A stretch of 64,000 bases of DNA from Mesostigma viride. Its lineage: Eukaryota; Streptophyta; Mesostigmatophyceae; Mesostigmatales; Mesostigmataceae. Every line of letters starts with the position of its first letter. Position 1 is the first letter of the stretch. Below are positions 6,980 through 61,579 of this stretch, one piece after another. A model generated the notes under the pieces. The model was not told the origin of the DNA, did not search any database, and saw only the letters and a list, made by a program, of their open reading frames with translations. The translations under genes were made by a program, and so were the position numbers. The stretch lies in the NCBI GenBank assembly GCA_009746045.1, contig RPFO01000264.1, forward strand, positions 122,001-186,000, given 5' to 3'.

Positions 6980-6987
6980 CGTATTAC
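6980..6987 (+). promoter_or_regulatory. Putative primer binding site of element B
   Basis: The eight bases CGTATTAC lie directly after the 5' LTR. They are the exact reverse complement of GTAATACG at 13157-13164 in the same element's 3' UTR. The position is that of a retroelement primer site; that the 3' UTR provides the partner is inferred from the matching arrangement in A, C and D. Confidence 0.55.
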
Positions 6988-7003
6988 TCGCCTTTTTCCA
7001 AAC

Positions 7004-7753
7004 ATGCCAAATTCTGAGGAATTCCGCATTCCAACTGATGAGGAGGTAGCTGCTCCGCCGGCTGACCCCTTACCGGCTCCGCATCTGCGCGAGCCAAGGC
7101 CGGCCGCGCCATCGTGGCAACAACTGCTTGACGAGGTCACGATTTCGCTTGACGAACTCCATCGTCGGCAGCGCGCAGCACTCCCATTGCTCGGGGATTT
7201 TCCCGAGAACCCCCAACTGCCGCAGCTGGTGCCGGCCATTCGTGGGCCGTTGGACACCATTCGAAACATTCTTTCGCAATTTACGGTCCAGGTCCGTGGC
7301 GGCTTGCGGTCGGTAACTGAGGTCACCACCGCTATCGAGGAGATCGACAACGCCATTTCCTCGCTGACCGGCTACCAGAGAAATTTGCAAAACTGGGCAT
7401 CGACACGCACGGGGGGCGCGCCGGTGGTCACGACGAATTTATTTCAAGACCTCGCATTGCTGTCGCTGCTTACACGCGGCGTGCGCAGTCGAGAGCGACA
7501 GGTGCTCATCAACCTGGTCGCCTTTCTCGCAGCCTTGCGCGAGTGGATTCCCGCAGGCTGGGAGTTGCTTTCAATTTTTACTCATCCTCTGCGCCTCGTC
7601 GCGCGTCGGCGAATTGCAATTTTCGAGCCGACGCAAAACGCAGCGAACACACCGGTGTTGATTCATACGGGTGCAGGTCCGGCCCACACGCCGGATATGG
7701 AGGATCCAGAGTACACCTATCAGTACTGTGATTTTCGCGGCCTCGATTACTGA
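7004..7753 (+). CDS. ORF1 of element B, unknown accessory protein
   Basis: An intact 249-residue reading frame starting ATG 24 bp after the LTR and ending TGA. I do not recognise a domain. The N-terminus is proline- and acid-rich (residues 1-40). Residues about 45-180 look largely helical, with a region around 100-130 that could form an amphipathic or coiled-coil helix. The C-terminus is acidic and tyrosine-rich. It precedes gag, the same place where element A2 has a 392-residue ORF1 and element C a roughly 300-residue ORF1; none of the three is obviously similar to the others. A matrix-like, nucleic-acid-binding or counter-defence role is possible but unsupported. Confidence 0.7.
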   Translation: MPNSEEFRIPTDEEVAAPPADPLPAPHLREPRPAAPSWQQLLDEVTISLDELHRRQRAALPLLGDFPENPQLPQLVPAIRGPLDTIRNILSQFTVQVRGGLRSVTEVTTAIEEIDNAISSLTGYQRNLQNWASTRTGGAPVVTTNLFQDLALLSLLTRGVRSRERQVLINLVAFLAALREWIPAGWELLSIFTHPLRLVARRRIAIFEPTQNAANTPVLIHTGAGPAHTPDMEDPEYTYQYCDFRGLDY

Positions 7754-7917
7754 ATAAATCGGCCCGTTTTCACGTACAAGTCGGCATTTTGTCGATTTTT
7801 CAGCGGCGATTCGCGGGGGCGGCGGCGACACCGGCGCAGGCGGCACTTGAGACAGTTTTTGTACATACCTTCTTCCGCTGCTTTGCTCGGTGTTTTTTGG
7901 ATAGCTTGTAGTGAATA
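7754..7917 (+). other. Intercistronic spacer ORF1-gag of element B
   Basis: No gene. It contains UGUACAUACCU near 7860 (a PUF-type UGUANAUA motif that recurs in the element's 3' UTR) and a T-rich run close to the gag start. Confidence 0.4.
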
Positions 7918-12657: not shown

Positions 12658-13606
12658 GCTGGTGCCTGGTTATAGGGCATTGGAGAGCAGATTGTGTGGT
12701 AGTGTCAGCATTGTGACTGGCATAATACCTGTATTTTAGTCTGTACTAAGGCTCATGGACCATGGTACACTCACTCTGATTTTAATCAGGATACAGCCAG
12801 GTTTTGGCTGGGGTTCATGCTGTTGACTACACAAGGTTGACAGGTCCATTACAGACCATGTATTCTATTTTAAAAGAAATGTATATTTGTACATACCTCT
12901 CACAATGGTCTGGGAACCTTTATTCTGGGGTTTATAGGGCGGGGTTCGATTCCCTGGTATTATGTTTCTACAAGCTGGCCTGTTCAGGTGTTTGCCTGTT
13001 CAGACTTCCCTAGTTCCCCAGGGCAGGATTTAATTGTTGCCTATGTGTTTCATTTTGTCATTTGTTTGCTGTGGCAGTTTACCATCTGGCAAGTAGACGG
13101 GCGCCGTAAGACGGGCGCCAATAGACCCCTGTTGAGAGAATGACAGGCAAACTATTGTAATACGCCTTACTTTGTCAAGTGGTATTTTAATTGTCATGGA
13201 TTTATTGTACTTATATTGAATATGTACTGGGTTTTATGGGATTAGTATCTGGGATTAATGTAACTCACCGCCAGAAGGTCATTGTACTGGAGGCTCTACC
13301 GAGGTGATGGGATTAATTCCTGGAGAAGACCTCATAGAATTAACCTGTATGTATTTAATTTTGTGTGTTCTAATATCTGGTGGTACTCTGTAATGCCACT
13401 TCCATAGGTTTTTATCCATTTCTCATGGAATGGTTTTCCCTGTGGCAGATCTGTTTCTTTTCCAGTTCCTTAAAAGAAAAGGCTGGGGGAATGGCAATGG
13501 CCATTAAAGACATCTGTTCAAGCTTCAAGCTGGAGTGAAGGACATTTCAAGCTACTTCAAGGGTCCCTGGCAGGGGATGTGATCCCTAAAGAAAAGAAGG
13601 GATTGG
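12658..13606 (+). mobile_element. 3' UTR of element B
   Basis: No gene. It contains UGUACAUA at 12888-12895, a T-arm-like hairpin (CGGGG-TTCGATT-CCCTG) near 12940-12956, the paired GGCGCC palindromes near 13100-13120, the primer-site complement GTAATACG at 13157-13164 in the loop of an AGGC/GCCT stem, and a polypurine tract at about 13588-13606 immediately before the 3' LTR. Confidence 0.8.
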
Positions 13607-14223
13607 AGTTAACGTAAAGGATTTACGTTAGATGGATAGAGATTGTTACGCTCTTTCCAACGGCACCTTGAACGCCTCATTTGGTTAAGGAACGTAAAAG
13701 TTATGACGTTTCCTAGGCTGTGCCGACAGTACCCGGCGCGCCACTGTGGGCGCGTACGGACACAGGATGTACAAGTGTCACTTTGATAGTCCGCAGGACG
13801 TTGACAGGACTTGTACAGGACTTGATGGTCAATTGATAGGTAGGCGCGCTGTAGCGCGCCAGGACCTATGAGACAATTGATGCTGAGTAGTGTACGGATA
13901 GGTCCACAGGACTAGCCGTATGGACAATTGATAGATCTGCGCGCCAAAGGCGTGCCAGAGTCTGTGTAATCAATTGATTGACAGTTCAGCTGTGACAGAG
14001 CAGCTGAATACTTGGACGCGTCCCTAGCAACCTATATGTGTGACTTGGTAGCACCGGGACGCTAGTTCTTGCGTGCACGTTCTCTTGGCACTGCGACCCT
14101 GTCGTCTGTGCTGCGTGCAGTCTTGGAAGTGACGTGACTTACGTCTGTGTTCCTTATTCTTAATAAAGGCAACATTCCTGCAAGAACCATGGCGGAATTC
14201 AGGGCATTCACTCTCTCACAACT
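13607..14223 (+). repeat. 3' LTR of element B
   Basis: Direct copy of 6363-6979; begins AGTTAACG, ends CACAACT, and is followed by the TTAAC target duplication (14224-14228). Confidence 0.93.
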
Positions 14224-14694
14224 TTAACCCCCAGTGAAGACATGGGCTCCCCAATAAGGCAGTATTTGTGTAGGTGCTACCTGAGTCTCTTTGAGCATAA
14301 AAGGGAAAGGCTGGCCAAGGCGGGCGCCATAAGAACGGGCGCCTGTGATAACTGTGAAAGATCAGGAACTCACAATAGTACGTTCTTGGCATCCTGTAAT
14401 CCCAGCCATTGGACTAGGTAATGTGCCTTGACTTTAATCTAGCACCAAGTTCCCAAGGAAAGGTTGGGAGCTGACCAAGGGGTCAGGGGATAACCTGGGG
14501 TGACCTCTGATTCACTGGCCAGTACACCTAGCCTGGTCCAAGGGCAGATATGTTGTTTTCCCAAAAGGAGGCAGGAACCTGGGCCCTCAAAGGTCTGATC
14601 AACCTCAAGGGACCAAGCGGTCTGTGGCTGAGTGGGCACAAGCAAGGTTAGGTTTGTTTCAAGCTGGTCCAGCTCCAAAAGAAGAAAGGGTTGG
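14224..14694 (+). mobile_element. 3' UTR of A1, second part
   Basis: Resumes the A1 3' UTR after element B. It holds the paired GGCGCC palindromes near 14320-14342, the hairpin CAGGAAC...GTTCTTG whose loop contains CAATAGTACG (14373-14382), and the polypurine tract ending at 14694. Confidence 0.85.
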
Positions 14695-16152: not shown

Positions 16153-16173
16153 ACACGAAATATAGGTAGTAAC

Positions 16174-17847
16174 CTACGTAAGTGAGTGTCGCGCCTTGTA
16201 CTCGCTAAGAAGGCGTGCACAACCATCTAGCTGGGACTCAGGCAACCAGCTGCTGTCATGTTGCGACCGGTGGAACATCCAACGGATCAGGAACTGTCGT
16301 CCTCGACGCGTATCGCGGTGTCCTATGATGGCGTCCACCTCGTCCTCACGCTCCCCCGTCTCTGGGTCGTGCTCGATAGGCGCCGGAGCGTCCACCCTGC
16401 CTTGAACGGCACTCTCCTTGTACAACTTAAGTTGATCCCGATGAAAGAGATTAGACTTAAGGTTCCAGGAGGAAGGGACTCGGACATAGTACATGACCTC
16501 GTTGAACCGCTTCTCGACTAGGTAGGGTCCCATGAACAGTGGTCGCAACTTGGTCTTGAGGCCTTCTTCGAATTTCTCTCGGAAGCGCCCCACGCGCGGA
16601 CCTTCCAGCAACACCAGATCACCCTCCTTGATCTCCGGAGTCCGTGAGTCCCTGGCTGCCAGGGTTCGCGCTAAGTACTTGTCTCGAGCCTTGGTGTACC
16701 CGGCGATGGCACAATCATGGGCCAGTGGCAGGTTCTCCAACAGCTCCCGCACCCCTGCATCGGAGTTCCGTAGAACCGGCTGCTCCAACAGGGTGCCGGT
16801 CAGAAGGTCGGCCGGAGTGAGAGGGTGCTGACCCGTGTCCAGAAAGAACGGGGTATACCCATGTGCTGCGATAGGAGAATTGTTGAGGGCAAATTCCACC
16901 ATCGGCACGATCTCATCCCAGTCGCCTCCACCCCTATCCACGTAATGACGCAAACTCTCCTGCACCACACGGTTAAGTCGCTCCACCAGATGTGAAGTCG
17001 AACTGTGGTAGGCGGTGCCGAGCGTTACCTTGGTACCAAGGGCAGAAAAGAAACTCTGCCAGAACTTGGATGTGAACAACTTGTCCTTGTCGCTAATGAA
17101 CTGGCGACTCATTCCGTGGAACCGGAAGACATTGTTCAGGTAAAGCTTGGCACATGCCTCAGCCGTGAGGTTCAGAGGACACGGCAGTAAGTGACAGCGC
17201 CGTGTCATCCGGTCTAGAATGACTAGAAGTTGCTCATTACCTGCCTTGGTCAACGCGAACGGTCCCACAAAGTCCATCATGACGCTGTCCCAAGGGCGCA
17301 CAGGGTCCGGGATGACTAAGGGGATGGCAGCTGACCCAGTGTTCCTAGGCTTCATGACCTGGCATGATCTGCAGGTACTGACGTATTCCTCAGCATCGCG
17401 CCGCATACCTTTCCAATAGAACGTTCGCTGAAGTAAATCAACAAGACGTTGGGTACCGCGGTGTCCGCTATGCTGCTCGTCGTGAAGCTCATGGAACAAG
17501 GCAGATCGACAGATGAGGGGCACGTATAGCCGCCACGTGTCAGGTCGAACCTGTACGTGTAGAAAACCCATCTGGAACTTACACGGGAGGCCGTCCATCA
17601 TCTGAGGATGGGACGCTATGGCTTCCCGTGCAGTAGGCTCGGTGATGGTGAATCGGCTGATCGCCCTTTCCAGATCGGACTCGACTGTAGCTACGCTGTT
17701 GAGAGCAGCAGCAAACAAGTCGATTGACTCACCAATAGGGACCAAGGGGTGGTAAACCCCGCTAGAGGGCGCAAAATGGCTCAAAGGAAGAGCCGACCTG
17801 CCCTCCCGAGCTACCGAGCTAGACCCCTCCCCCCAAGGGGGATCCAA
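16174..17847 (-). CDS. int: Chromovirus integrase with C-terminal chromodomain
   Basis: A 557-residue open frame that catalyses insertion of the cDNA into host DNA. The zinc-binding HHCC domain is visible as HELHDEQHSGH...CRSCQ (about residues 118-160). The catalytic core has Asp in MMDFVGPF, Asp in FISDKDKLF and Glu in SHLVERLNR. The last roughly 55 residues (DAIIGHRDTRRGRQFLIRW ... SSWLPESQL ... LLSEY) match a chromodomain, which in chromoviruses targets integration to modified chromatin. The N-terminal part up to about residue 30 overlaps the end of the RT frame. A run of six G (plus-strand C run near 17828-17833) is where the two frames meet, so this may be a -1 shift or a single-base loss of one pol frame. 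Confidence 0.88.
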   Translation of the reverse strand: MDPPWGEGSSSVAREGRSALPLSHFAPSSGVYHPLVPIGESIDLFAAALNSVATVESDLERAISRFTITEPTAREAIASHPQMMDGLPCKFQMGFLHVQVRPDTWRLYVPLICRSALFHELHDEQHSGHRGTQRLVDLLQRTFYWKGMRRDAEEYVSTCRSCQVMKPRNTGSAAIPLVIPDPVRPWDSVMMDFVGPFALTKAGNEQLLVILDRMTRRCHLLPCPLNLTAEACAKLYLNNVFRFHGMSRQFISDKDKLFTSKFWQSFFSALGTKVTLGTAYHSSTSHLVERLNRVVQESLRHYVDRGGGDWDEIVPMVEFALNNSPIAAHGYTPFFLDTGQHPLTPADLLTGTLLEQPVLRNSDAGVRELLENLPLAHDCAIAGYTKARDKYLARTLAARDSRTPEIKEGDLVLLEGPRVGRFREKFEEGLKTKLRPLFMGPYLVEKRFNEVMYYVRVPSSWNLKSNLFHRDQLKLYKESAVQGRVDAPAPIEHDPETGEREDEVDAIIGHRDTRRGRQFLIRWMFHRSQHDSSWLPESQLDGCARLLSEYKARHSLT

Positions 17848-19787
17848 GCGTCCTCGCGCACTACCTCACTGGCCCAATCCACACCGGTGGCGAAGAGCGA
17901 GCGATAGGTCGGCGAGTCCGGTGGTGCCCCGTAAGGTTCGACGGGGCCCCATAGGGGCACCTCCACCGTGGCTAGAACGTCCAAGGTGTCGTGGAACCAA
18001 TAATCGGACCTACGGGACAGGGCATCTGGAACGACGTTGTCCTCACCCTTCACATACTGAATGCGGAAGGGCTCAAACTGGGACAAATACTCCAACCACC
18101 GCGCTTGCCTGGGAACTAGCGTGGGTTGTGTGAGCAGGTGAGTCAGAGGACGATGATCTGTCTGAATGACAAGTCGGTAAGGATCCTCCTCGCTAGGCTG
18201 GCAGATGGAGACATCAAACTGTGCTCCTAGAAGGAGGTGGCGCCACGTATAGCAGCAGTAAACCACCGCGAGTAGTTCCTGCTGGTGTACCGGATAATTG
18301 CGTTCCGCCGCTATCATCGTCCGCGAGATGTACTCGATAGGCTGAAGGCCATTACCGAAGTCCTGCATCAACACGCCTCCTATCGCCACCTTGCTGGCAT
18401 CCGACGCAACCACGTACCCCAGAGAGGGGTCCGGTAGGGCCAGGACTGGAGCGGTGAGAAGCCGCTCTTTAAGGCACGCGAACGCGCCCTGGCACTCAGC
18501 TGTCCAGGCCCAAGTGGTTTCCTTCTTCAACAGATTGTTGAGAGGAGCAGCCAGGGTGGCAAAGCGAGGAATGAAGCGACGATAGTAAGATGCCATGCCA
18601 AGAAAGCTGCGTATCTGACTAACGTTGGTCGGGGCAGGCCAAGTCTGGACTGACTGGACCTTCTCGGGGTCGGTTGCGACCCCTTGTGCAGATAGCACAT
18701 GTCCCAGGAAAGGTACACTGCGCCCCGACCGAATCTTGGCACGGCGTGCGGACAACTGATTGTCCCGCATGATACCCAAGACCGCCGCTACATCCTCTAA
18801 GTGGTCTGCGAATGAACGCGAATAGACGAGAATGTCATCCAAGTACACGGCGACACACGTGCGCTTGTAAGGCGCGACAGGAACGTCTGTGTCTTTAACT
18901 CCCGGATCCCGAAGATCTTGAGACACCTGCGGTAGCCGTGTAGTACCCATGACTGGGCGAAAGATGTGGTTCATCAACATCTGGAAGGACGCTGGTGAAT
19001 TGCACAGTCCCATGGCCGCCACCTTGAACTGGAAGTGGCCATAGGGCGTGGCGAAGGCGGTCTTGTGACAATCTTCTGGCGCAATGCGCAGCTGCCAAAA
19101 CCCATCGGCACAGTCAAGTACCGTGAAACAGGTGGCTCCCTGCACCTTGGCGAAGATGTCGTCGATCCGGGGCAACGGATACTTGGATTTAACCGTAATC
19201 GCATTGATCATGCGATAATCCGTCACCAGCCGCCACTTACCATGCGGTTTGGGGACAAGAAGGACCCCAGCCGAATACGGACTGTTACTCTGCTCAATCA
19301 GGCCAGACTCCAATAATGAAATCAGAATCTTCTTCAGTTCGGCCAACTCAGACGGGCCCATGCGGTACATAGGCGACGTGGTTGGGCCCGCTCCGTCCTT
19401 CAGCTGGATCCGGTGTAAAACGGGGCGAGCTGGAGGAAAGGTGGGGTTCTTATCAGCAAAAACCTCAGAGAACCGATCTAATACCTGATTGTACGCCTTA
19501 CCCTCATCGTCGGTGAAATCCGCACAGAGAGAGTTAACCTCGACTACGGCCCGCAGATCGTCGGGCCTAATAGCATAAAAATAAGCACCCTTGCGAACTA
19601 GGCGGCGAACCTCCTTCTTGGAACAGAAGATTTTCTCCGCTGGACGCATAGGACGCGCCGGCTCTGATCGATCCGCTACGGTGATCCCGTTGGCAGCAAA
19701 ATGGCGCTCGGGCCCCACGAGAAGCCGTCGGCAAACCAGACTACACCCGTGCGATATTGAATCTGCACGTCGTGTTCCCGGTGCCAA
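17811..19787 (-). CDS. pol: Chromovirus reverse transcriptase - RNase H
   Basis: An open frame of 658 residues. RT motifs appear in order: LIEQSNSPYSAGVLLVPK, DYRMINAIT, YPLPRIDDIF, FTVLDCADGFWQLRI (first catalytic Asp), FATPYGHFQFKVAAMGLCN and AVYLDD (18834-18845). RNase H follows, with VVASDASKVAIGG, QQELLAVVY, IQTDHRPLTHL and PDALSRR. It makes the cDNA and removes the RNA template. Two insertions are unusual: about 28 residues between FRPVM and AVYLDD, and about 15 residues before the IQTDH motif. The first residues overlap the protease frame and have no obvious start, as expected for a frameshift product. Confidence 0.92.
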   Translation of the reverse strand: MAPGTRRADSISHGCSLVCRRLLVGPERHFAANGITVADRSEPARPMRPAEKIFCSKKEVRRLVRKGAYFYAIRPDDLRAVVEVNSLCADFTDDEGKAYNQVLDRFSEVFADKNPTFPPARPVLHRIQLKDGAGPTTSPMYRMGPSELAELKKILISLLESGLIEQSNSPYSAGVLLVPKPHGKWRLVTDYRMINAITVKSKYPLPRIDDIFAKVQGATCFTVLDCADGFWQLRIAPEDCHKTAFATPYGHFQFKVAAMGLCNSPASFQMLMNHIFRPVMGTTRLPQVSQDLRDPGVKDTDVPVAPYKRTCVAVYLDDILVYSRSFADHLEDVAAVLGIMRDNQLSARRAKIRSGRSVPFLGHVLSAQGVATDPEKVQSVQTWPAPTNVSQIRSFLGMASYYRRFIPRFATLAAPLNNLLKKETTWAWTAECQGAFACLKERLLTAPVLALPDPSLGYVVASDASKVAIGGVLMQDFGNGLQPIEYISRTMIAAERNYPVHQQELLAVVYCCYTWRHLLLGAQFDVSICQPSEEDPYRLVIQTDHRPLTHLLTQPTLVPRQARWLEYLSQFEPFRIQYVKGEDNVVPDALSRRSDYWFHDTLDVLATVEVPLWGPVEPYGAPPDSPTYRSLFATGVDWASEVVREDAWIPLGGRGLAR

Positions 19788-28479: not shown

Positions 28480-28858
28480 GCGACACAGGGTTACGGCTCG
28501 GGCACTTTATGAATACAGCCATAGCACCCTGTGTTGCTAGCATTCACGAGTATCTTGGTAGTAGTTTTTTTGCTTGTCCTGACCATACCCTCGCCACGTT
28601 GGACGGTGCCTTGGGCCCGTCGGCGGGTCACTGGTCCTAATATAAGGGTCACCTTTTGTCTGGTGGCATAGTTGTTTTTTTTTTCCTCGCTACTTATTAC
28701 ATCACTATTCATGTGTGATCACAAGGGCACGGGTCGATACCGTGGTGATTTTGACGGCCTTGAGGCCCCCTTGAGTTCCCTACCTTAGAGGGTTTTGTAT
28801 GGTCTGCATTTCATGTAATTATTTTGATAATTAATCAAAGAACAAAAGAGTATGTCGG
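28480..28858 (+). mobile_element. 3' UTR of element E
   Basis: No gene. It is AT-rich toward the end and closes with a purine-rich tract (AAAGAACAAAAGAG, about 28837-28850) a few bases before the LTR. I could not find a T-arm-like hairpin or a primer-site complement here; without the 5' end the latter cannot be tested. Confidence 0.5.
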
Positions 28859-32213: not shown

Positions 32214-32223
32214 GGTACTATTG
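32214..32223 (+). promoter_or_regulatory. Putative primer binding site of element G
   Basis: GGTACTATTG lies directly after the LTR. Nine of ten bases pair with CAATAGTACG in the D-family 3' UTR (61299-61308). Confidence 0.5.
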
Positions 32224-33250: not shown

Positions 33251-34056
33251 CTGCGTTAATTCTGGGAGAGTTCAACCCGGACCTCCAGAGTTGAATGCCC
33301 TTCACCGCTGGCTAGCACGCCGGCGATGGAGACGGGATTTTTGTTGTTTGGGGAACCGATTGTGGGAGGCTGAGCCCGCAGCCGCCACTGATTGCTATTG
33401 AACCCTTGCAGCTGGCCAGGCCGCAAGGAGCTCAGCGGCGCGGCGCTAACCGATAAGGCACGCTCGAGCCTCTAACCCGAGACTACCGGTAGGCTACCCG
33501 ATAGTGCATGCTCGAGCCTCTAACCCGAGACTACCGGCACTCAGCGGATCTGTGCTACCGAGGGCGACGGTTCTCTGACCGTCCCGGCGCGCACTGGCTT
33601 CCGTACCTTGCTTAGGCACCGACTAGCATCTAGACACCAATCTTTGATGCCCACCTGACTAGGCGCCCAGGCCGGCGACTACCGGCCAGCAGATAGATGC
33701 CACTCGGGAGCACAACTCCCATACTTTCTTTTTAAATCATTATCATAAATTATTTAAAGCGAGGGGCAATAGGGTAGCACTGACCCTACGTACGTTCAAG
33801 TAGAGAAACACGTAACGGCACACTGGCCGTCCCCAAATCCTAAACCCCAAGGAGGGTGCCCTACACTGGGATCTGAGCACGCCAAAAAACACCCGGGCTT
33901 TGCTCCCGGCCTCCTTTTCTACTTGGGTGCAACTGCACCACATGCATCATTAGTAGGCACACTGGCCGCCTGTCAGGTCTAGGGAAATGTATTCACAGAT
34001 GAAAGAAGCGCCCATTCCCATGCAAAAGACGACAGGTCACACTGTAAAAAAAACTC
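33251..34056. other. Gene-free spacer with a 49-bp tandem repeat
   Basis: No gene seen. Two copies of a unit containing GCTCGAGCCTCTAACCCGAG lie at about 33462-33490 and 33511-33539, one unit being about 49 bp. GGCACACTGGCCG occurs twice (near 33816 and 33956). An AT-rich block covers 33720-33760. Confidence 0.5.
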
Positions 34057-36215: not shown

Positions 36216-37225
36216 CCAGCCCTTTCTTCTTTTGGAGCTGGACCAGCTTGAAACAAACCTAACCTTGCTTGTGCCCACTCAGCCACAGACCGCTTGGTCC
36301 CTTGAGGTTGATCAGACCTTTGAGGGCCCAGGTTCCTGCCTCCTTTGGGTAACAACATATCTGCCCTTGGACCAGGCTAGGTGTACTGGCCAGTGAATCA
36401 GAGGTCACCCCAGGTTATCCCCTGACCCCTTGGTCAGCTCCCAACCTTTCCTTGGGAACTTGGTGCTAGATTAAAGTCAAGGCACATTACCTAGTCCAAT
36501 GGCTGGGATTACAGGATGCCAAGAACGTACTATTGTGAGTTCCTGATCTTTCACAGTTATCACAGGCGCCCGTTCTTATGGCGCCCGCCTTGGCCAGCCT
36601 TTCCCTTTTATGCTCAAAGAGACTCAGGTAGCACCTATACAAATACTGCCTCATTGGGGAGCCCATGTCTTCACTGGGTGTTAAGCCCAGGAATCACTCA
36701 TGCCAGGCTGTGGCTCTGCTGGGGAATTGAACCCCACCCCAACCTCCAGGTTTATAGGTGACCTGGAACTTTACACAAGAGAAACATTACAACCATGGAA
36801 CAACATGAGAATGACATGACATGATTATGTTTTATTCAAGCATTATATAACCCAGAATGTGGCCCCCTGGCAACCATGTTCCACATGGTCACACAACCAG
36901 GTTCTTTATTAGCAACAGGTTGGAAACAAGCACTAGAAAACATATGTACAGCAACCTGTAAGAACCAACATTCGGGTTGCCCTTGCATGGCCTAACTGTT
37001 TGAGGCCAAAGGCGTCGACTTAAGTCCTGGCGACTCTTCTGAACCCCATGGGGAGGGCCAGGCATGATTCTCAGCTGGTAGGAGTGACATTCCACACCAA
37101 CTCCTGTCCAGGAGGGTGTACCTAACCCTGAAGGACCGGCTGTCAACCAGTAAGCACCAGTCACCACTTGGTACTTTGGTCAAGCAGCCCACTGGGGGCA
37201 CCCAAGCTGAAGCAAGGCCTGGTCT
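36216..37225 (-). mobile_element. 3' UTR of A2
   Basis: Reverse complement of the A1 3' UTR. It contains the primer-site complement at 36526-36535, GGCGCC pairs near 36564-36584, the T-arm-like hairpin near 36722-36740, AATAAA near 36906, and UGUACAUA near 36940. An uninterrupted version of element B's target site is also present (GTGTTAAG near 36679). Confidence 0.85.
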
Positions 37226-43370: not shown

Positions 43371-43380
43371 CAATAGTACG
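43371..43380 (-). promoter_or_regulatory. Putative primer binding site of A2
   Basis: On the minus strand CGTACTATTG follows the LTR end GCTAACT directly. It is the exact reverse complement of the 3' UTR segment at 36526-36535. Confidence 0.6.
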
Positions 43381-45822: not shown

Positions 45823-46123
45823 GGTTGTGGCGCGACGCACACACGTGTACGCAAGTTACGTAGCTAGCAACTAGTCTAGTGGACGTTGTGCGTAGTAACG
45901 TTGCTCCAGGTCTAGAAGCCTCTAGAACCTGGACACGTGGCGGACAAGTGAGCGTAGTCCAGTTGTCCTAGGGATCTCGTGTGAGTGAGGTGTCCACGAC
46001 ATATAATGTGTGCCCACATATGGAGTGAATAATGACAAGGAACGCCCGATCCCTGGCGTTGCTGCAGCCATCATTCTCACACTGAGTCCCCAACGTCTCC
46101 GACGTACATCTATATATCTAACT
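45823..46123 (+). other. Gene-free segment, possible short solo LTR
   Basis: No gene. 45854-46123 begins AGTTACGTAG and ends TATCTAACT, the terminal signature of the local LTRs, and contains a TATA-like ACATATAATG near 46000. Flanking 5-mers do not match, and there is no second copy in the window to confirm it. Confidence 0.3.
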
Positions 46124-46665
46124 ACTGCCGACCGGCGGGCGAGGGCGGTGCACTCTCAGGGCATAGTGGACAGGACACGTGGCAGGCCGTGCCTGCACAG
46201 GCTTAGCCTGAACCCTCACGTGACCGGGACACAGTGTACTGAGGGCTCAACGGTCCTGTGGCTAGTAGAAGCCAGTAGCCAGCCAGCAGGTCTGCAAGGA
46301 TGTAAGTCCATGCAGGACTGTGGCAGGTCCTGTGCTGTCCTAGACACAGGATAGCCAGAGATTCCTGTATGCTGCCTGCAACAAGGATGCAGGGCAGCGA
46401 TACGAGGCTCTGGCAATGTAGCGTTGCCCAGCGTTGCTCATGACCGAGGAACAAGGATGGAACGAGGTTGCATATAGCTCGAGGCTCAACGAGGCAACGA
46501 GCATCTTCGCACACGAACCTTGGTCGTCACGACGAGTGGCGAGCCTATCGAGGGTCGTAGGCCTCAGTGGTGTGAGGATAAAGGTTGCTAGCCAGCAGCC
46601 TAGGGTCATTCCAGCCGGCAAGGACCAGGAGCTCACAAGCTCTGCTGATGAGTTGCTGCGCAAAT
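46124..46665 (+). repeat. Partial D-type LTR (positions about 116-657)
   Basis: Matches 61695-62236 closely and lacks the first 115 bp of the LTR. It ends GCAAAT and is joined to CGTACTATTG at 46666. Confidence 0.8.
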
Positions 46666-47108
46666 CGTACTATTGTGAGTTCCTGGTCATCCAGTTATCA
46701 CAGGCGCCCGTTCATCCACGCCGTTCATCACGGCCTGCCACGTGTCCTGTCCACTATGCCCTGAGAGTGCACCGCCCTCGCCCGCCGGTCGGCAGTACTT
46801 CGGGACCTGATATCTTTCTAGTCCCTCGTCTGTTCTAGGCGGTTGACATGGCGTTCGAAAGGTCTCCTCAACCTGCATCCATCTAGCACATTGGTGCCCC
46901 AATATGCTAACTCCAACCCTTTCTTGTTTTGGAGCTTGGACCAGCCTGAGAACCTATCAGCCACTGTCCCCACAGCCTTCAGACATCTGATCCCTCCCAG
47001 AGACCAGACCTGCCTTTTCTTTTGGAACCTGAGGTGCCTCCAAATATTAGCTAGGCCTGCTCATTGGTTCAAAGGTTGCCCTCTGACCCACATGACATCC
47101 CAACCCTT
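46666..47108 (-). mobile_element. Inverted D-type 3' UTR and LTR pieces (left of element C)
   Basis: Minus-strand D sequence in two blocks. 46666-46715 is the 50-nt 3' UTR stretch ending in the primer-site complement. A 14-bp filler follows, then 46729-46912, the first 184 bp of a D LTR on the minus strand, and its polypurine tract and 3' UTR up to 47108. The same 3' UTR continues at 55200 after element C. See the finding on the chimeric junction. Confidence 0.75.
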
Positions 47109-47806
47109 AGTTAACGCCAAGCGCATTGGCGTGATCCTGATTCGGCATATCTCTGCGATTCCAACGGCACCGGAACGAGTTCATTCCGACAAGTATCAAG
47201 AAAGTTATGGCGTTCCGACTTCCCGGTCGCGCGCGAGCGCGAGCCGGCTGTTCTTCTAAGTCGGACGTGAATATTTGCCGACGGCATATGGGGTCGACAG
47301 TAATTCCTGGGCTGACAGGAATTAGGTGCTGTACCTACGACGGTATTGGATTAATACGTCGTACGCAGGAAATAGGAACCTTAACCTGTGGTCTGTTGGT
47401 ACCGCAGGATTAGTCCTGGACTTCTAGGTGCAGATGCAATAATCACTGTGGTGACTGTACTCTGTGGTCACTGTGCCTGTATGGCAGACCTACTGTATAG
47501 GAACTGGGCGCTGTACAGGTAGTGAATACTGTACCGGGGTGTTATTACTGAGCATACCTCTTAGGTTGCTCAGGACTAGCAAGCACAGTGCACAAGTATA
47601 TAAACAATAGGCCAGTGCCATTTGGGCAGATCTCTTGCGAGCCCGCCTCACGTGTTGTGCCTTGACTTGGCAAGCGCGTGTACAAGCCTCAAGTGTGTGA
47701 GCGCTGTAACATTATCCAATTTTAACAAAGCTCCGTTTCCAACCATATTCACACATTGCTGCATTGCAACCATATCCTTCACATTGCGTTGCTAGGAACG
47801 TTAACT
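47109..47806 (+). repeat. 5' LTR of element C
   Basis: Begins AGTTAACG and ends CGTTAACT, a perfect 8-bp inverted pair. It contains TTCCAACGGCACC about 50 bp in and a TATA-like TATATAAACAA near 47597. Confidence 0.95.
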
Positions 47807-47816
47807 CAAATTACAA
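47807..47816 (+). promoter_or_regulatory. Putative primer binding site of element C
   Basis: CAAATTACAA directly after the LTR is the exact reverse complement of TTGTAATTTG at 54255-54264 in the 3' UTR of the same element. Confidence 0.6.
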
Positions 47817-50099: not shown

Positions 50100-53000
50100 C
50101 TTGAGCCTGCACACATCCCTGAACCCTGGAGGGTGCCCCCAGGGGTGTGTAATGTAGCTGCTAGTGACGGCAGTGAGGGGCAGCCCCATGCTCTAGTGAA
50201 AGAGCCTATTGGACACGATGGGGCAAGCTTGGTTACCACAGAGAGTATGCCAGCTGTAGCTGCAGTGGTTACTCGCCAACGTGCCCGCCATGGCGGTGCT
50301 GAGCCTGAGGTAGGACCTGGTGATGTGGACCCAGGTGGATCTCAGAAGCATTCTGACCGTGCAGGACTGGCACAGGATGGTCAGGATGAGGATAGGGCTG
50401 GAGACAGTCTGACAGGCACGACCCTGGTGCCTCCTGTACATAAGGGATCTGTACATACCTTGAGTGCTAATAATGACAATAAAATTTTCTCTCTTGTATG
50501 ACATTGCCTCAAGGTTGCATACCATGTTTGGCCATGCAGCTCAGTCTTTGCAAGTTGCTAGACGGCTGGGAGGAAGTGAGTTGTACTCCATCTGCCAACA
50601 GGTTGCTCAAGCTTGCAAGTGCAGGCTAGTTGCTAGAAAGCCCAAGCAGTCTCATGCCAGGACTCCTATTTTGCAGCCAGGCCATGTGCAGGTAGATATT
50701 CAGAGAATCAGGGGTTTGAAGCTGCTGGTGGCAGTGGACAGATATACCAAGTACAAGACCCTAGAGATCCTGCCTGACATGGAGAAGCCTACATTGATTG
50801 CTGCTCTGAAGTTGACAAGGAGCAGGTACCCTGGGTTGGAGTTGTTGCAGTGTGACATTCAGTTTGAGTGCTGTGAGAACCTGCCAGAGTTTCCAGAGTT
50901 GCTGATTACACCCAGGGAGAGCCACGGCCAGCAAGGGGTGGTGGAGAGAGCCATCCAAGAGATCAAGACTGTGCTGCTGGTGGAGAGGATTCCAAGGACG
51001 TCATCTGCCATTGTGACATCTGCATGGCTACGTTCTGTGGAGGACAGGCTGAACCTGAGGACTCCCATGTTCTTTGGTGACATTGCCATCAATCCTCTTA
51101 TGCTGCATACCAGGATGCTGCCAGCTGATGCTGAGCAGGCATGGAAGGAGAAGCTAGAGGCCAAGTTCCTCAAGCTGAGGCAGAAAGACAAGGGCTGGAG
51201 TGTCCTAGAACCTAACGTTGGACAACAGGTTGTTGTGTGGAAGGAACCAAGCTTTCCAGGGAAACGTGGCAGCTGGCATGATGGGGTGGTGACCCGAGTA
51301 GAAGCCGCTGGCCATAAGTGCTGGGTGGCCATTGATGGCTCCCAAGCAGTGCACCGTCTGTCCTGGTCAAAGATCCGTCCCCGGGGAGGTAATCAAGGAG
51401 ACCTCTTCCAGGTGCCCGCTGGTGTACAAGGCGGGGGTGACGTGGAGCTTCCTGATCAGGGTGCTACAGCTGTATCGAGCCCTCAGGGTGACCCTGGCCC
51501 GGCCCCTGGGGTACCTTCACATACGGTGGTTGGGCAAGCAGGCGGACAGGCTGCACCTCCGGAACGGCCCGACACCAGGCCTAGGGGTGTGCGTCTATCA
51601 GATATTGTACAGGCTTTGCAAAGAGCCAAGAAGGAGCCTAAGGTGTCCAAGCTTGTCCAGTTGGATGAACCTGAGGTAGCTGCCATGGAGATAGATACCA
51701 ATGCACAGGTTTCTGTCATGGGACCTCAGCATACAGGAGAACTGCTGGTCGGAGAACCAAGTTGCCCCTGGGTGTCTGATTTCAGTGGTAGGACGCATCT
51801 AAGGGTGTTGGGAGAGGTTACTGCCCCTGTCATGGGTGTGGATGTGACCTTCCTTGTCCTAGAGGACTATGATGGCCCTGTGATTTTGGGTCAGAATTTT
51901 CTGGGCAATCCTGGGATTTCTATCAGAGCTACAGCTCTGAGAAGAGATGGCTGGGGGATGATTCCCCTAGAAAATTTCAGGACAACATTTCCAGTCAGGT
52001 GCAGGGCCAAGCCGGTCAAGGGTGTAAAATGGGATGAAGGGGAGGTGCCCCCAGCGGCCAGTTTGGTGATTCCAGCTGTGTTGCACCCCAGCAGTATTGG
52101 CATAACTCACAGGAGCCTTGCTGCACACTCTCCTTTGACATATGACCAGCTGGTCCAAGAGATGAGCTCGCCTACTTTGTTTGAGGCTTGGAAGCTCGCC
52201 TTCTCCAAGGCATTGGAGGAGTGGTTGCAGTTTGAGTGTGCTGCACCAACAGACAGACGTCCCCCAGCATCAAGGAAGCTTGCTTTGAGATTTGTGCTGA
52301 AGAGGAAGGTTGTGGATGAGGTATCAGTGCCCCATGTCAGGCCTGTCCTGAATGAGTATCACGGCACGGGGAGTCTGCCAGGAGAGGAGCTATACACGCC
52401 AGGGATGCTACACGACACATGGAGAATTTTGCTATGTCTCTACGTGGGGTTGCTGAACAGGGGAGCAGCTATGTCATCAGTGCTGCTGGACTTCAAGAGG
52501 GCATTTTTAAAATCTGATCCAGAAGTGGCCAGGAGGGTGTGGAAGCAGGATGAGCCTTACTGTGTTGAGGTGCCTGCCATCTGGAAGCTGGAGCTGCATC
52601 AACAATTCCTGGTTATTCTGAAGGGCCTGGAAGGACTCAGGTCGAGCCCAATCATCTGGAGACTCACGCTGCAGGAAGCTCTGATCAGTGAGTGTGGCTT
52701 GAGAGTGTCTTCAGTTGATCCCTGTTTGCTGCTGGCCCAATGGGAGGGTCTGCCAGTGTATGCTAGTTTGCATGGAGATGATCTGCATTTGCTAGCCCCC
52801 ACGACCTGGCTGAAGAAGTTTATTCCTGTCATCAGTGGCAAGTTTTCACTGGGCAAGGAGCTGTGGCAGGAGCCCAACAAGCCTGTAGTGTTCTGTGGAA
52901 TGCAGGCTACCCTGTTCAGGAGGGACGGGGAGTGGAGTATCAGGCTTCAGGCTGGAGGAGATTATAAACAGACCATTGTGAAGGCCTTGCCAGAGAAGAT

Positions 53001-53688: not shown

Positions 53689-54494
53689 AAGCTGAGAGCT
53701 GGGTGCTTAAGTCTCTGGATATCAGGCTGGGAGCTTGATTGTACATAATCCTGAGCACACCTTGAGGGGTGAGACATGTCTCTGGTGTGGGAATGTCTGA
53801 CATTGTCTCTGATGGAGAGATGTCTATCTGGGGTTTTCATCTCAGTCTGAGGTTTCCCCAGATCTGTGGTTTGTGGGCGGGGTTCGATTCCCTGGTGCCG
53901 TCTTAAGGCGGAGTTTCACGGACTGGCTGACCCATCCACCATGCTGGTGAGGTGGCGACAGGTCCCCTGATTTTCCACGGTTGGAACGAGTATGGGAGCT
54001 TGTGTTTTGCATGTGCTTCGCGTAGATGTTGTGTCTGGTTCGATAAGGGGCAGCAGACCGGCGCCGACTCCCGTCTGGGGGTCAGCAATGTTTTCTGATG
54101 AGCTGTTGTGGGTGATCTGTGGGGTTTCGCCTAAGGTCCTGAAGGTTGTACATACTTCTCAAGTTCTTAGCTGAACACCTATGGGCTGCCACAGTTGGCC
54201 AACCTCTTGTACATGGGTAACACAACGAGCCTCCCGTGAAGGGATAGGGACTCATTGTAATTTGTTTGTGCTCCTGAACCAGTATGGGTGCTATGTACAT
54301 ATAATAAGGAATCCAAGCTGACTGTCATGCCCAGTGGGTGTGACTTGTAGTCAGGGAGGATGTCCAGGAATCCAAGCTGGCTGTCATGCCCAGTGGGTTG
54401 TGACTTGTAGTCGGGGAGGATGTCCAGTACCCATTGTGTGTGTTTGTATGTAGACTTGTGTGAGCTGCTACAGCTCAAGAAAAGAAAGGATTGG
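53689..54494 (+). mobile_element. 3' UTR of element C
   Basis: No gene. In order: UGUACAUA near 53740, the T-arm-like hairpin CGGGG-TTCGATT-CCCTG near 53879-53895, GGCGCC near 54060, UGUACAUA at 54147-54154, the primer-site complement at 54255-54264, a tandem pair of about 60 bp (54308-54366 and 54367-54426), and the polypurine tract before the LTR (about 54476-54494). Confidence 0.8.
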
Positions 54495-55194
54495 AGTTAA
54501 CGCCAAGCGCATTGGCGTGATCCTGATTCGGCATATCTCTGCGATTCCAGCGGCACCGGAACGAGTTCATTCCGACAAGTATCAAGAAAGTTATGGCGTT
54601 CCGACTTCCCGGTCGCGCGCGAGCGCGAGCCGGCTGTTCTTCTAAGTCGGACGTGAATATTTGCCGACGGCATATGGGGTCGACAGTAATTCCTGGGCTG
54701 ACAGGAATTAGGTGCTGTACCTACGACGGTATTGGATTAATACGTCGTACGCAGGAAATAGGAACCTTAACCTGTGGTCTGTTGGTACCGCAGGATTAGT
54801 CCTGGACTTCTAGGTGCAGATGCAATAATCACTGTGGTGACTGTACTCTGTGGTCACTGTGCCTGTATGGCAGACCTACTGTATAGGAACTGGGCGCTGT
54901 ACAGGTAGTGAATACTGTACCGGGAGTGTTATTACTGAGCATACCTCTTAGGTTGCTCAGGACTAGCAAGCACAGTGCACAAGTATATAAACAATAGGCC
55001 AGTGCCATTTGGGCAGATCTCTTGCGAGCCCGCCTCACGTGTTGTGCCTTGACTTGGCAAGCGCGTGTACAAGCCTCAAGTGTGTGAGCGCTGTAACATT
55101 ATCCAATTTTAACAAAGCTCCGTTTCCAACCATATTCACACATTGCTGCATTGCAACCATATCCTTCACATTGCGTTTGCTAGGAACGTTAACT
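54495..55194 (+). repeat. 3' LTR of element C
   Basis: Direct copy of 47109-47806 with two single-base length differences and one substitution. Ends CGTTAACT, followed by CCCTT. Confidence 0.95.
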
Positions 55195-55498
55195 CCCTTT
55201 CTTTGGGAACCTGGTGTAGATTAAAGTTAGGTCTTCACTTAGTCAGAGGAGTTTGGATAGAGGAGTCCATGAACGTACTATTGTGAGTTCCTGGTCATCC
55301 AGTTATCACAGGCGCCCGTTCATATGGCGCCCGCCACGGAGCCTCCTTTATCTTTTAAATCCTTCCAAAGACTGAGAGAGCCCTGACAAATGTTAGCCAA
55401 CACATGGGGAGCCCATGTCCTCACTGAGGGATAAACTCAGGATTCACACATGCCAGGCTGAGGTCAGCTGGGGAATCGAACCCCACCCCAGACCTCCA
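55195..55498 (-). mobile_element. Inverted D-type 3' UTR (right of element C)
   Basis: Reverse complement of about 61092-61390: primer-site complement (plus-strand CGTACTATTG at 55277-55286), GGCGCC pair, and the T-arm-like hairpin near 55470-55490. Similarity stops at about 55498, a few bases beyond the hairpin, where plus-strand D1 sequence begins. Confidence 0.8.
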
Positions 55499-57054: not shown

Positions 57055-60000
57055 CTTGATGTGTTGTCCCCTGTAAATAGTCAATCACCCCTAGTGGGAC
57101 GAACAGTTGTACAAAGTAATGGGGGTGTCCCTCTTGTGCAGCAGCAAGAGGTTGGGAATGATGAGGTGCTTCCACTCAATGATTGCAATAACGCTGCTGC
57201 AGCAGTGGAATTCCCTGTGCCTGTGGCAGGTGCAGGGTCTCCAGTTGTTGGGGTTGACTCTGGGAGTCAAGCCGCCAGACTGGAAGGACCTGCAGCTTCT
57301 GTGGGAACCGGGGCTGGCTCTGGGAGCCGAGCTACCTTGGAGGAGGTCCCTGGAGCAAGAGAACAGCAGGTGGGTCGTGCTATCCCAAGCACACAGTCTT
57401 TGTCACGTTCCTCTCTGTGCAGCCAGGCTGACAGGGGGTTGAGCTATGCTCAGGCTGGAAACACTCTACACCATATCTTTGGCCACTCTAAGCAGGCAGA
57501 GATGTTTGCTTGGAAGATTGGCAAGGAGCCTTTGCTAGAGGCCTGCAGTGCAGCTGCTCAGAATTGTGTCTGTCAGGAGAATGCTGTTCGCCTCCCACAG
57601 TCCCATGCCAGAGAACCTGCTAGAGAGCGGGGGGATATCCAGGTGGACATCCAACACATCAGGGGCATGTATCTGTTGGTGGGGGTGGATAGGTTTAGCA
57701 GATATAGGTTGCTGACCATTCTTCCTGGAATGCAGGAGCATCAGCTGTTGATGGGTCTCCAGTCTTTGTTGCCAGGCTTTGGGGTGTACACCAAGGTGCA
57801 AGCTGACTTGCAGTTTGACTGCTTGATCAAGCTGGCTGACCAGCTTCCTTGTAAGTTGGTAGTGGTCCCTAGGGAATGCCATGGGCAGCAGGGAGCTGTA
57901 GAGAGATCTATACGTGAAGTAAAAACAGTGGTGCTAGCAGCTAGGAGTGTGCCTGTTGTGGCATCAGCTCTAGAGAAAGCAGCTTGGTGTAAGGGGATTG
58001 AGGAGCAGCCACAGGGTAACCTATTACTATGATGGTGTGGCAGTCTCTCCCCTGGCATTGCAGTTTGGTATGCTATCACAGGACGTGGTGGCAGCCTGCC
58101 TGAAGAAGGCAGACAGGGTGTTTTCCAGATTGAGGCGTAAGGACAAGGGTTGGAAAATGCTGAGGCCCCAGGTGGGACTGAGGGTCAGGATGTGGAAGGA
58201 ACCGTCATTACCAGGCAAGCGTGGCAAGTGGCAAGATGGGCAGGTAACCCATGTTGAAGAAGCTAACCATTCTTGTCTGGTGGCTTTGGAGAGTAATCCC
58301 AAGCACGTGTACAGGCTATCCTGGGCTCACGTCAAGGAGAGAAGGCCAACTGCAATCTGGCCTGAAGACGGCCCTGATCCTCCCTTGGAGGGAGATGAGC
58401 AGGATGAGAGCCAGGCAGCAGATGCTAACCCACCATGCTTGGATTATGGTCTGTCCTGGATGGATGAGGGTGAGCAGGAGTCTGCTGAGACGTCTGTCAC
58501 AAGGCCAGAGGTGGCCAGGGCTGCACCACAGTCCAGGGGGCTGCTTATGGCGGACATCATTCGAGCTCTGCAGAACAGCAAGCGTGATCCCAAGGTATCT
58601 AAGCTCACGGGATGGGGGTCATGTGGGGCACCAGCACTAGAAGTGGATACCAACTCACAGGTGTCCATTCTAAGGGTAGAGGATGCTGCAGGCTTGCAGT
58701 GGTCATCCCCTAGCTGCCTAGCTGTGTCTGATTTCTCTGGGAATGTGTCCATGAAGATCTTGGGAGAAGTGAGTGTGCCTATCCTGGGGGTGCCCACCAC
58801 GTTCAGTGTGGTTGAAGGGTATCAGGGGCCTGCCATTCTAGGTCAGAACTTCTTGTGCTTACCAGGGGTGAGGATATCCTCTGAGGAGCTAGCATTAGAA
58901 GGGCAGGGCCGCCTTCCCTTGCAGAGATATCGCTACTCCCAGGGTCTTAGTGTGGCTGTAAGGGCTGTGAGGGGTCTAGAGGCAGAGGGTCCTGATACAA
59001 AGGAGCCCATTGCTGGGGACCTGCTGATCCTCCCTACTACGTTTGACCCACGTGAGTTGGGTGTGCAGAGGTACCAGATCCCAGGAACGAGTCCTGTACC
59101 TTGGCGCAAGCTAGTGGAGATGATGCAAAGCCCCAAGATGGCTAAGGCATGGACTCTTGGCTTTGTTGCTTCTGGGCATGAGTGGATAGTTGCCAACTGT
59201 GCAGAGCCTGTGGATGTCCTCCCTGAGGATCACCAGCTGCTCAGGTTGATGTTTGTCCTCAAGCTCAAGGAGGTAGATGGCGTGCAGGTGCCACATGTTA
59301 GACCAGTTGTGACTGAGTACCATGGCACTGGACAGTTAGCAGATGAGGAGCTTTACACACCAGGGATGCTGCATGATACATGGAGGATTTTGTTGTGCAT
59401 TTACTTGTCTTTTCTGCAGAAGGGGATACCCTATAGCTCTGTGTTGGTAGATTTCAAGAGGGCTTTTCTTAAGGGTGATCAGCAGGAAGCACAGGATACT
59501 TGGCGCACAATACCCCCTTTCTTTGTTAAGGTGCCTGCAGTGTGGAGGGCAGAGCTGAAGACGAGGTATTTGAGGATTCTCAAAGGCGTGGAAGGCCTTA
59601 GATCGAGTCCCATCATCTGGAGGAAGAGCTTGGAGAAGTACCTCAGGTCTGTCTGTGGTCTCTCAGTCTCTCCAGTTGATCCTTGTCTGTTTCAGGGTAG
59701 CTATGAGGGGCTGCCAGCGTTTGCCTCCCTGCATGGTGATGATCTGCATCTCCTGGGCCATCCCACTTGGCAAGAGTTGACTCTGGCCAGGATCCAGAAA
59801 CGGTTTGAACTGGGTAAGATCCAGTACATGGTTGAGAATGAGCCCATGGTGTTTTGTGGAATGCAGGCGACCTTGGTCCATCAGCAGGGTACATGGTCCA
59901 TCCAGCTGGAGGGTGGTAAGGATTATCCTCAGCAGATCATAGATGCCTTGCAGGAGCCCATCACCCAGGCCAGATGTGCAACAATACGAGGTATGTTGGC

Positions 60001-60643
60001 ATGGCTGGCCAGCATTTGTGCTCCTGACCTGTTGGTACTGAGTCGGTTGACCGATTCCCAACTGGTTGAGGTGGGTGCTGAGAGAGTGGTAGAGGCTGTT
60101 CGCATGTCTCCCCCTCTCATGCTGGGTCCTTTGGATTTGTACAGGCCTTTTGACATGATGCTCTATGTGGACAGTTCTATGGATAGTAGGAAGGTCACAG
60201 AGGTCAGGGGCCGTGCAGCAGCATTAATATCCCTGGTGCAGGAACAGTCCTCTCTGGTCTGCTGGTACAGTCGGTTGCAAAACAGGGTAACTCCCAGCAG
60301 TGACATTGCTGAGTGCAGGGCAATCTGTGAAGGGCTTCATACTGCTCTTTACTTGAGGGAGCTATTTTACCAGCTATGTCAAGTGGCTTCCTGTCGGTTG
60401 CAGATGCACACACTGGTAAGAACTGACAGCATGGGCATGGTGCAGTTTGTGCACAGGCAGCTGGCCAGGAGCAGGGACCTTGATTATTTGTTGCTCAAGG
60501 AAATGTCTTGCTTAGCTAACATTGAACATGTGGCTGGCGTGGACAACCCTGCAGATGCTCTCACCAAGCTGGAGGAGAAGGCTGAGCTGCAATACCCTTT
60601 GCTTCGTGGGCTCATGGCCTCCAAGGGGGGAGGGCCAGAGTAG
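57055..60643 (+). pseudogene. pol: pol of D1 (one 5-nt deletion)
   Basis: Reads on from gag across the UGA (LDVLSPVNSQSPLVG). Integrase: HHIFGHSKQ, VDIQHIRGMYLLVGVDRF, QADLQFD, CHGQQGAVERSIREVK. At about 58010 five bases are missing relative to A1 (GAGCAGCCACAGG against GAGCAGCTGAACCACAGG), moving the frame to 57998-60643. That part holds the SH3-like GKRGKWQDGQ, protease-like DTNSQVS (58646) with ILGQNFL, RT with VLVDFKRAF and HGDD (59732-59743), RNase H with YVDSSMDSRKV, SSDIAECRA and NPADALTK. It lacks the A1 intron-like block and insertions. Confidence 0.9.
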
Positions 60644-61579
60644 ACCAAACAGCCTTGCTCTAGGTGGGAGGCATCCCAGTGGGCTGGGCAGCCACGTGGT
60701 GGCTGACAGCAGGTCCTTCAGAGTTCAGACACACTCTGCTGGACAGGGGTCAGGGTGGAGTCACTCCCCTGGCTGAGAATTTCGCCTGGCTCTGTCATGG
60801 AGCTGCAGAAGAGTCTTAAGGACTTTGTAATGGGCCTTGGGTCTTCATGGAATGGACCCTGCAAGGGCAGCCCAAGTGTTGGCTCTAACAGGTTGCTGTA
60901 CATTTGTATATATTCTCTGTAACCAACCTGTTGCATGCTAATAAAATCCCTGGTTGTGTGACCATGTTGGACGTGGTTGCCAGGGGCCTCACTATGGGTT
61001 ATACTCTTTATAATAAAACATAATCTTGTTATTGTCATGTCTTGTTGTTTGTGATGCTCAGTTCCAGGAGCTGATCCAAACCTGGAGGATATGGGGTGGG
61101 GTTCGATTCCCCAGCTGACCTCAGCCTGGCATGTATGAATCCTGAGTTTATCCCTCAGTGAGGACATGGGCTCCCCATGTGTTGGCTAACATTTGTCAGG
61201 GCTCTCTCAGTCTTTGGAAGGATTTAAAAGATAAAGGAGGCTCCGTGGCGGGCGCCATATGAACGGGCGCCTGTGATAACTGGATGACCAGGAACTCACA
61301 ATAGTACGTTCATGGACTCCTCTATCCAAACTCCTCTGACTAAGTGAAGACCTAACTTTAATCTACACCAGGTTCCCAAAGAAAGGGTTGGGATGTCATG
61401 TGGGTCAGAGGGCAACCTTTGAACCAATGAGCAGGCCTAGCTAATATTTGGAGGCACCTCAGGTTCCAAAAGAAAAGGCAGGTCTGGTCTCTGGGAGGGA
61501 TCAGATGTCTGAAGGCTTGTGGGGACAGTGGCTGATAGGTTCTCAGGCTGGTCCAAGCTCCAAAACAAGAAAGGGTTGG
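60644..61579 (+). mobile_element. 3' UTR of D1
   Basis: No gene. Contains UGUAUAUA at 60905-60912, AATAAA near 60940 and 61012, T-arm-like TGGGG-TTCGATT-CCCCA near 61097-61113, GGCGCC pair near 61253-61272, hairpin CCAGGAAC...GTTCATGG with loop CAATAGTACG at 61299-61308, and the polypurine tract ending 61579. It also preserves the empty target site of element C. Confidence 0.85.

Follow-up and report, generated by a model that had tools for sequence, protein, structure and literature searches.

Divergent copia-like retrotransposons of Mesostigma viride are likely to prime their minus-strand DNA from their own 3' untranslated region

What primes reverse transcription in the long terminal repeat (LTR) elements that are densely packed in a 64,000-nucleotide stretch of the Mesostigma viride genome? 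This stretch, hereafter the window, covers positions 122001-186000 of contig C1978 in a 440-Mb assembly. A host tRNA primer is described as a requirement of most LTR retroelements and retroviruses (PMC5445492), and the established self-primed exception relies, in the account of PMC4600332, on the 5' end of the RNA. In the elements studied here, the bases directly after the 5' LTR, at the position of the primer-binding site (PBS), are complementary to a segment in the 3' untranslated region (UTR) of the same element. Judging from these sequence patterns, we consider it likely that they are divergent copia-like LTR retrotransposons that prime their own minus-strand DNA from the 3' UTR.

Perfect pairing over 8-12 bases, starting at the first base after the 5' LTR, was found in all 11 elements in which both ends were read (A2, A3, B, C, C2, D, E, Q, Q2, R and S), and these comprise six different sequence pairs (Table 1 for those in the window). 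In other genome stretches, the LTR pairs were identified by self-comparison. The original prediction had claimed that the sequences differ between families with the pairing kept, and that the element may supply its own primer. Both claims are supported: A2, B and C are complementary from the first base after the LTR, all positions given for the PBSs and 3' complements of A, B, C, D and G were correct when rechecked, and the proposed covariation holds in 11/11 elements, which are a sample rather than all of the genomic copies. The A3 site and family E came in addition, each with its partner in the same element. In A3 (CGTATTATTGT with ACAATAATACG) both sides have changed relative to A2, and further pairs are CGTATTACAGT/ACTGTAATACG in R, TGTATTCATAAA/TTTATGAATACA in E and CGTATTACA/TGTAATACG in Q and Q2. 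C2 has the same pair as C, and S, in which 2 kb is unread, has the PBS CGTATTATTG and the 3' tail CAATAATACG. Copies of D elsewhere have the full 10 bp (CGTACTATTG/CAATAGTACG), 6806 bp apart in L001/L002, the two ends being assigned to one element by their spacing. The complement is located about 180-455 nt upstream of the 3' LTR in seven elements.

The pairing is rarely matched by chance. When the run from the first post-LTR base was compared with 3000 dinucleotide shuffles of the element's own 3' UTR, its length was equalled in 0/3000 for A2, 7/3000 for B and 2/3000 for C. Across 580 post-LTR offsets, equal runs were obtained at one other offset in A2 (460) and in B (136) and at none in C, and pairing between families gave runs of 3-6 bp, save within the related A/D/G group. 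The pairing claimed between G and D stands in part: it extends over 9 bp from the second base, which 2 of 3000 shuffles reached, but the first base of G is unpaired, and no 3' UTR belonging to G was found. For G at a threshold of 8, eight other offsets among the 580 qualify, one with a longer run (10 at 423). Among 100 listed genomic places with CAATAGTACG, 22 pairs in the (-,+) arrangement are 6.3-7.0 kb apart, compared with none in the (+,-) arrangement. The PBS match of the C copy L112 continues unbroken to 18 bp. Several genomic matches to CAATAGTACG were set aside as unrelated, including tandem repeats (L009, L010, L022 and L023). The complementarity ends at the LTR boundary in 9/9 rows, but this counts as weak evidence, because with LTRs ending in T it has a chance of about 3/4 each time.

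A second complementary stretch is found just past the PBS, where 4-7 bp pair with the arm upstream of the tail, and this helix could be placed in 9/9 elements tested: GGAA/TTCC in D, CAGGAA/TTTCTG in A2, AGGA/TCCT in A3, AGGC/GCCT in B and Q2, TGACAGG/TCTGTCA in Q, GGGACT/AGTCTC in C, GACCAG/CTGGTC in R and TCGGG/CCCGA in E. The summed score of the nine elements was attained in 0/4000 shuffles, as was that of A2, B, C, R and E alone, with values for single elements ranging from 5/4000 (Q) to 1202/4000 (A3); an earlier version of the test, with A, B and C only, gave 14/3000. The mean score was 12.6 for own pairs; the 60 pairings between families averaged 8.7, and 9 of them attain the own-pair median.

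The primer sites of A, B, D, R and S are embedded in a common structure, in which a GGCGCC...GGCGCC hairpin (P2) and a second hairpin (P3) precede the site, and the whole is closed by a stem (P1). The hairpin loop that had been suggested for the 3' site in A, B and D is, more accurately, the open strand of a three-way junction. The lower P3 stem pairs 5/5 in A, B, D, R and S in the types TGTGA/TCACA, AGTGA/TCACT and AATAG/CTATT, and the P1 sequences differ but pair fully in D, A, S, B, R and E and at 5/6 in F. The stems were counted with hand-set arms because the MAFFT alignment of the primer domain misplaces P3 of B, and the D variant L003, in which the P1 pairing is not clean by eye, was left out of the scoring. 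E and F have a simpler hairpin at the primer end. Since P1 is missing from the computed minimum-energy fold of R, the energies computed by folding the 3' UTR pieces as single sequences do not stand out (z from +0.7 to -2.1), and C and E lack the three-way form, the fold rests on comparison. Nothing in the window scored above the Rfam gathering score, and the two matches below it, in the 3' UTR of D, are at chance level.

Could host RNAs, such as tRNA halves or other small RNAs, be the primers, with the 3' UTR sites captured from them and useful in some other step? Internal cuts in tRNAs supply the primers of Copia and Ty5. The PBS of fungal FunCo1 is reported to be complementary to an internal tRNA region (PMC5445492). 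A T-arm-like motif is present in the 3' UTR of A, A3, B, C, D, Q, R and S. A primer formed by the tRNA 3' end would require a PBS starting with TGG, and this candidate was rejected as the PBSs start with CGTA..., CAAA... or TGTA... and none with TGG. Of 10691 tRNA candidates, 63 were scored and listed, and in the 20 of these stretches that were compared, several of them perhaps from organelle contigs, the longest match to a tail suffix was 4-5 nt. Furthermore, the sites of A, B, D, R and S share a common fold with compensatory stems instead of different tRNA bodies, and priming by host RNAs would need about six such RNAs, each tracked by a 3' UTR, and six captures with kept second helices, which is unlikely. 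We regard this as the least probable of the explanations considered here, and very improbable in itself.

The T-arm-like motif, GGTTC(A/G)ATTCC, also resembles a box B and is located in a GGGG/CCCC-type stem. Its distance upstream of the primer end is 207-222 nt in A, A3, B, Q, D and R, whereas in C it is 384 nt. In E a related hairpin is located downstream, and none was found in F. A role as an RNA polymerase III promoter or a tRNA mimic is possible. Runs of 7-10 T are found near the primer hairpin in the short 3' UTRs of E (28564-28686, plus strand) and F (34040-34060, minus strand).

A minus-strand primer must sit beside U5, and in the elements read the sequence at this site matches that of the element's own 3' UTR; priming from the 3' UTR would account for this with a single cause. 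The folded domain would present a tail ending in AGTACG (A and D), AATACG (A3, B, R and S), AATTTG (C) or AATACA (E), and cleavage of the RNA after this tail would leave a 3' OH. In Tf1-type self-priming, the primer is cut out by the ribonuclease H of the reverse transcriptase. The tail could then anneal to the PBS next to U5, forming 8-12 bp, its upstream arm pairing again over 4-7 bp just past the PBS, and the reverse transcriptase would extend it into U5 and R. The PBS of the next copy would be a DNA copy of the primer, and through such rewriting the PBS and the 3' site would stay perfectly matched. If the plus strand failed to stop after the PBS, it would enter the primer RNA, yielding a chimera in which LTR and PBS are followed by the reverse complement of the 3' UTR.

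Such chimeras exist, with the reverse complement of the 3' UTR directly adjoining the LTR end and the PBS. The one in the window has an inverted part of 50 nt including the PBS (46666-46715) that is 100% identical to the 3' UTR. Searching the genome for an LTR end, PBS and reverse-complemented arm of the A/D/S type gave 8 places, compared with 0 for the reversed-pattern control; all eight are true chimeric junctions, representing at most 7 distinct events (C162 equals C2044). The corresponding search for C gave 32 places, again with 0 in the control. Ten were examined (7 of the 15 exact matches, 1 of the 3 with one mismatch and 2 of the 14 with two mismatches). Six of the exact matches are chimeras in which 90 nt or more of 3' UTR follow the PBS, and the other four places are ordinary. 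With C162 and C2044 counted once, 13 chimera loci were obtained overall. The copied primer is 45-50 nt long and ends in the P2 loop in L078 and the window chimera, whereas the inverted part is about 0.8 kb or more in the other A/S chimeras. In L076, a minus-strand LTR reverses at LTR positions 347-394, and L078 has a similar turn near 304-418.

One chimera has been integrated as a whole. In C1468, read except for 2 kb in the middle, the junction lies within an 8.1-kb insertion that is bounded by complete LTRs and flanked by CCAAC on either side. On the other strand it begins with LTR, PBS, reverse-complemented 3' UTR, pol and, by position, the gag region, and the remainder consists of the PBS and U5 end, a turn, the 3' UTR end, the purine tract and an LTR. 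The complete LTRs and the 5-bp duplication indicate that this chimera was formed as cDNA, during reverse transcription, and it fits plus-strand DNA that read past the PBS into a primer made of the element's own RNA. It is possible to think of the chimeras as genomic rearrangements between inverted copies, joined through the 10-bp identity without reverse transcription; the sites are indeed short inverted repeats within each element, and the window chimera has filler and further microhomology at 46716-46733. The structure of C1468 argues against this, as do L079 and L081, which end exactly at the LTR start with flanking sequence that does not continue the element, and the 13 loci seen, not all of which need be independent. 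Rearrangement is thus an unlikely source.

Another possibility is that the pairing serves to circularize the genomic RNA, as in Ty1, with another RNA acting as primer, which would also account for template jumping at the paired site. For Ty1, the CYC5:CYC3 pairing of genomic RNA is reported as demonstrated by compensatory mutations (PMC4974528). The two systems are alike in the pairing of a 5' with a 3' region of the genomic RNA, which is predicted here from the sequence. The Ty1 pairing is, in the same account, downstream of a separate tRNAiMet PBS (PMC4974528), whereas here it begins immediately after the LTR and occupies the PBS itself, a constant position that circularization alone leaves unexplained. 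It would also require a second primer for each family, and a host primer of fixed sequence could not fit six different PBSs. We consider it improbable that circularization is the sole function of the pairing.

Several observations weigh against priming from the 3' UTR or soften its support. The chimeras could also be produced by plus-strand strong-stop DNA that ends with the PBS and mis-anneals to the 3' UTR, and C1468 fits such a mis-landing equally well. The inverted parts, which differ in length, point to no single primer length. The chimera loci are partly dependent, as in C162 and C2044, and some could be spreading copies; for C, the loci L113, L114 and L116 may be copies of fewer events, since they have a common LTR end, and L114 and L116 also a common 3' UTR variant. 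Genome matches numbered 480 and 464, compared with 364 and 367 for the reversed controls, so that many are due to chance, and for unpaired CAATAGTACG matches a partner was found at the expected distance in 0/6 places (L049-L054). The second helix is weak in single elements (1126/4000 for D, 1202/4000 for A3, 359/4000 for Q2 and 334/4000 for E), and its test was designed after the pairing had been seen. Finally, C and E lack the three-way fold, and the tRNA comparison covered 20 stretches. Whichever way the chimeras arose, annealing of the PBS to the 3' UTR site seems to take place in the course of replication.

We see about even chances that priming from the 3' UTR takes a specific form, in which a single cut in the 3' UTR turns the genomic RNA itself into the primer, acting on the same molecule or on a co-packaged sister as template, with each round rewriting the PBS and the chimeras recording read-through along this RNA to its PBS and U5. 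A miniature element (L063:1-601), consisting of an LTR, the PBS CGTACTATTG, 98 nt in total between the LTRs, a purine tract and an LTR, has no primer site, and its primer could therefore come only in trans.

The closest known systems are the Schizosaccharomyces elements Tf1, for which self-priming is established, and Tj1, for which it is proposed, according to PMC4600332. As in those, the PBS is complementary to the element's own RNA and not to a tRNA; their primer is described as the mRNA 5' end, cut from an RNA structure (PMC4600332), whereas the complement here is in the 3' UTR, mostly within a folded domain, and in copia-like elements. The fungal GalEa copia elements are reported to have no PBS but an unexplained Conserved Hairpin Site in its place (PMC5445492). 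They resemble the elements studied here in being of the copia type, in having no tRNA PBS and in the conserved complementarity of non-coding sequence where a PBS would be. Unlike the sites here, the GalEa site is palindromic with the last base of the LTR, and no 3' UTR partner is mentioned in the description consulted (PMC5445492). If the primer is a folded segment of the 3' UTR, with bipartite pairing and built-in covariation, it would represent a separate solution to the priming problem and suggest a concrete test for GalEa and other elements without a PBS, and if the genomic RNA is the primer and rewrites the PBS, new primer sequences could spread without a host tRNA. The chimeras would then be a readable genomic record of 3' UTR priming.

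Table 1. Positions of LTRs, PBSs, 3' UTR primer sites and related features in the window.
Feature	Position	Strand	Sequence or remark
B 5' LTR	6363..6979	+	AGTTAACG...CGCAACT; target-site duplication (TSD) copy TTAAC at 6358-6362 just before
B 3' LTR	13607..14223	+	TSD TTAAC at 14224-14228 just after
C 5' LTR	47109..47806	+	TSD CCCTT at 47104-47108 just before
C 3' LTR	54495..55194	+	TSD CCCTT at 55195-55199 just after
E LTR	1513-1857	-	Adjoins E PBS
B PBS	6980..6987	+	CGTATTAC
B 3' UTR primer site	13157..13164	+	GTAATACG
A2 PBS	43371..43380	-	CGTACTATTG; directly after LTR end ...GCTAACT
A2 3' UTR primer site	36526..36535	-	CAATAGTACG
A1 3' UTR primer site	14373..14382	+	
A3 3' UTR primer site	455..465	+	ACAATAATACG; PBS CGTATTATTGT beyond the window at C1978:115579
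C PBS	47807..47816	+	CAAATTACAA
C 3' UTR primer site	54255..54264	+	TTGTAATTTG
D 3' UTR primer site	61299..61308	+	CAATAGTACG
Second D-type 3' UTR primer site	55274..55283	-	Inverted D fragment split by C insertion
G PBS	32214..32223	+	GGTACTATTG; first base mismatched to D site
E PBS	1501..1512	-	TGTATTCATAAA; next to E LTR
E 3' UTR primer site	28506..28517	+	TTTATGAATACA; from second E copy
Putative F 3' UTR primer end	33988..33995	-	TGAATACA within hairpin; F PBS not seen
B P2 hairpin	13100..13119	+	GGCGCC...GGCGCC
A2 three-way junction	36510..36602	-	P1/P2/P3, holding primer site
D three-way junction domain	61235..61325	+	
Chimera	46120..46715	+	D LTR end ...GCAAAT, PBS 46666-46675, then reverse-complemented D 3' UTR
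T-arm/box-B-like motif	259, 6309, 12943, 53881, 61100	+	
T-arm/box-B-like motif	36723	-	
Protease-like segment	10595-10972, 51622-51996, 58574-58951, 26426-26799	+	
Protease-like segment	38913-39290	-	

The elements have the hallmarks of LTR retrotransposons, namely direct LTRs, a polypurine tract 5' of the 3' LTR and, at clean insertions, 5-bp target duplications (TTAAC for B, CCCTT for C and GATGC for E). They are also nested, with B inserted within A1, C within a D fragment and A3 inside E, the two LTRs of which are identical. The pol frames gave weak matches to rve followed by RVT_2, below the curated cut-offs, and have HHCC- and DDE-like motifs as judged by eye; the integrase thus precedes the reverse transcriptase as in Ty1/copia. 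Members of that superfamily have the protease ahead of the integrase and LTRs that end in TG...CA. Here, the LTR termini are AGTT...AACT or AAAT, and a protease-like segment (DTNSQVS...LGQNFL) is located between integrase and reverse transcriptase, giving the order integrase, protease, reverse transcriptase, ribonuclease H, with no fold search having been made for a second, upstream protease. The fold predicted for this segment is retropepsin-like at moderate confidence (predicted local distance difference test, pLDDT, of 66), with three PDB matches at E<=0.001, the best being 1fmb (E 6e-4). No relatives of the proteins were found in IMG/VR and GTDB; one relative (P0001) has 66% identity to the pol open reading frame of C across 99%. 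The active-site position of the reverse transcriptase reads HGDD in all four of the aligned frames that extend that far.

Some further features were observed. U5 contains the word GACCAGGA(A/G)CTCACA at 43401-43415 (minus strand) and 62194-62208 (plus strand), near-identical to the 3' UTR primer arm, and in C1468 this identity falls at a jump point. The U5 end of A3 (1377-1421, plus strand) shares a longer stretch of similarity with the 3' UTR primer region (GTGAAAGATCAAGAGCTCACATACGTT), which suggests an exchange of sequence between the two. Elsewhere in the window, Ty3/gypsy-type frames with a chromodomain are found at 16174-21543 (minus strand) in several overlapping or shifted open reading frames, and a frame at 30354-30836 (plus strand) resembles a DIRS-like tyrosine recombinase, the motif being judged by eye.
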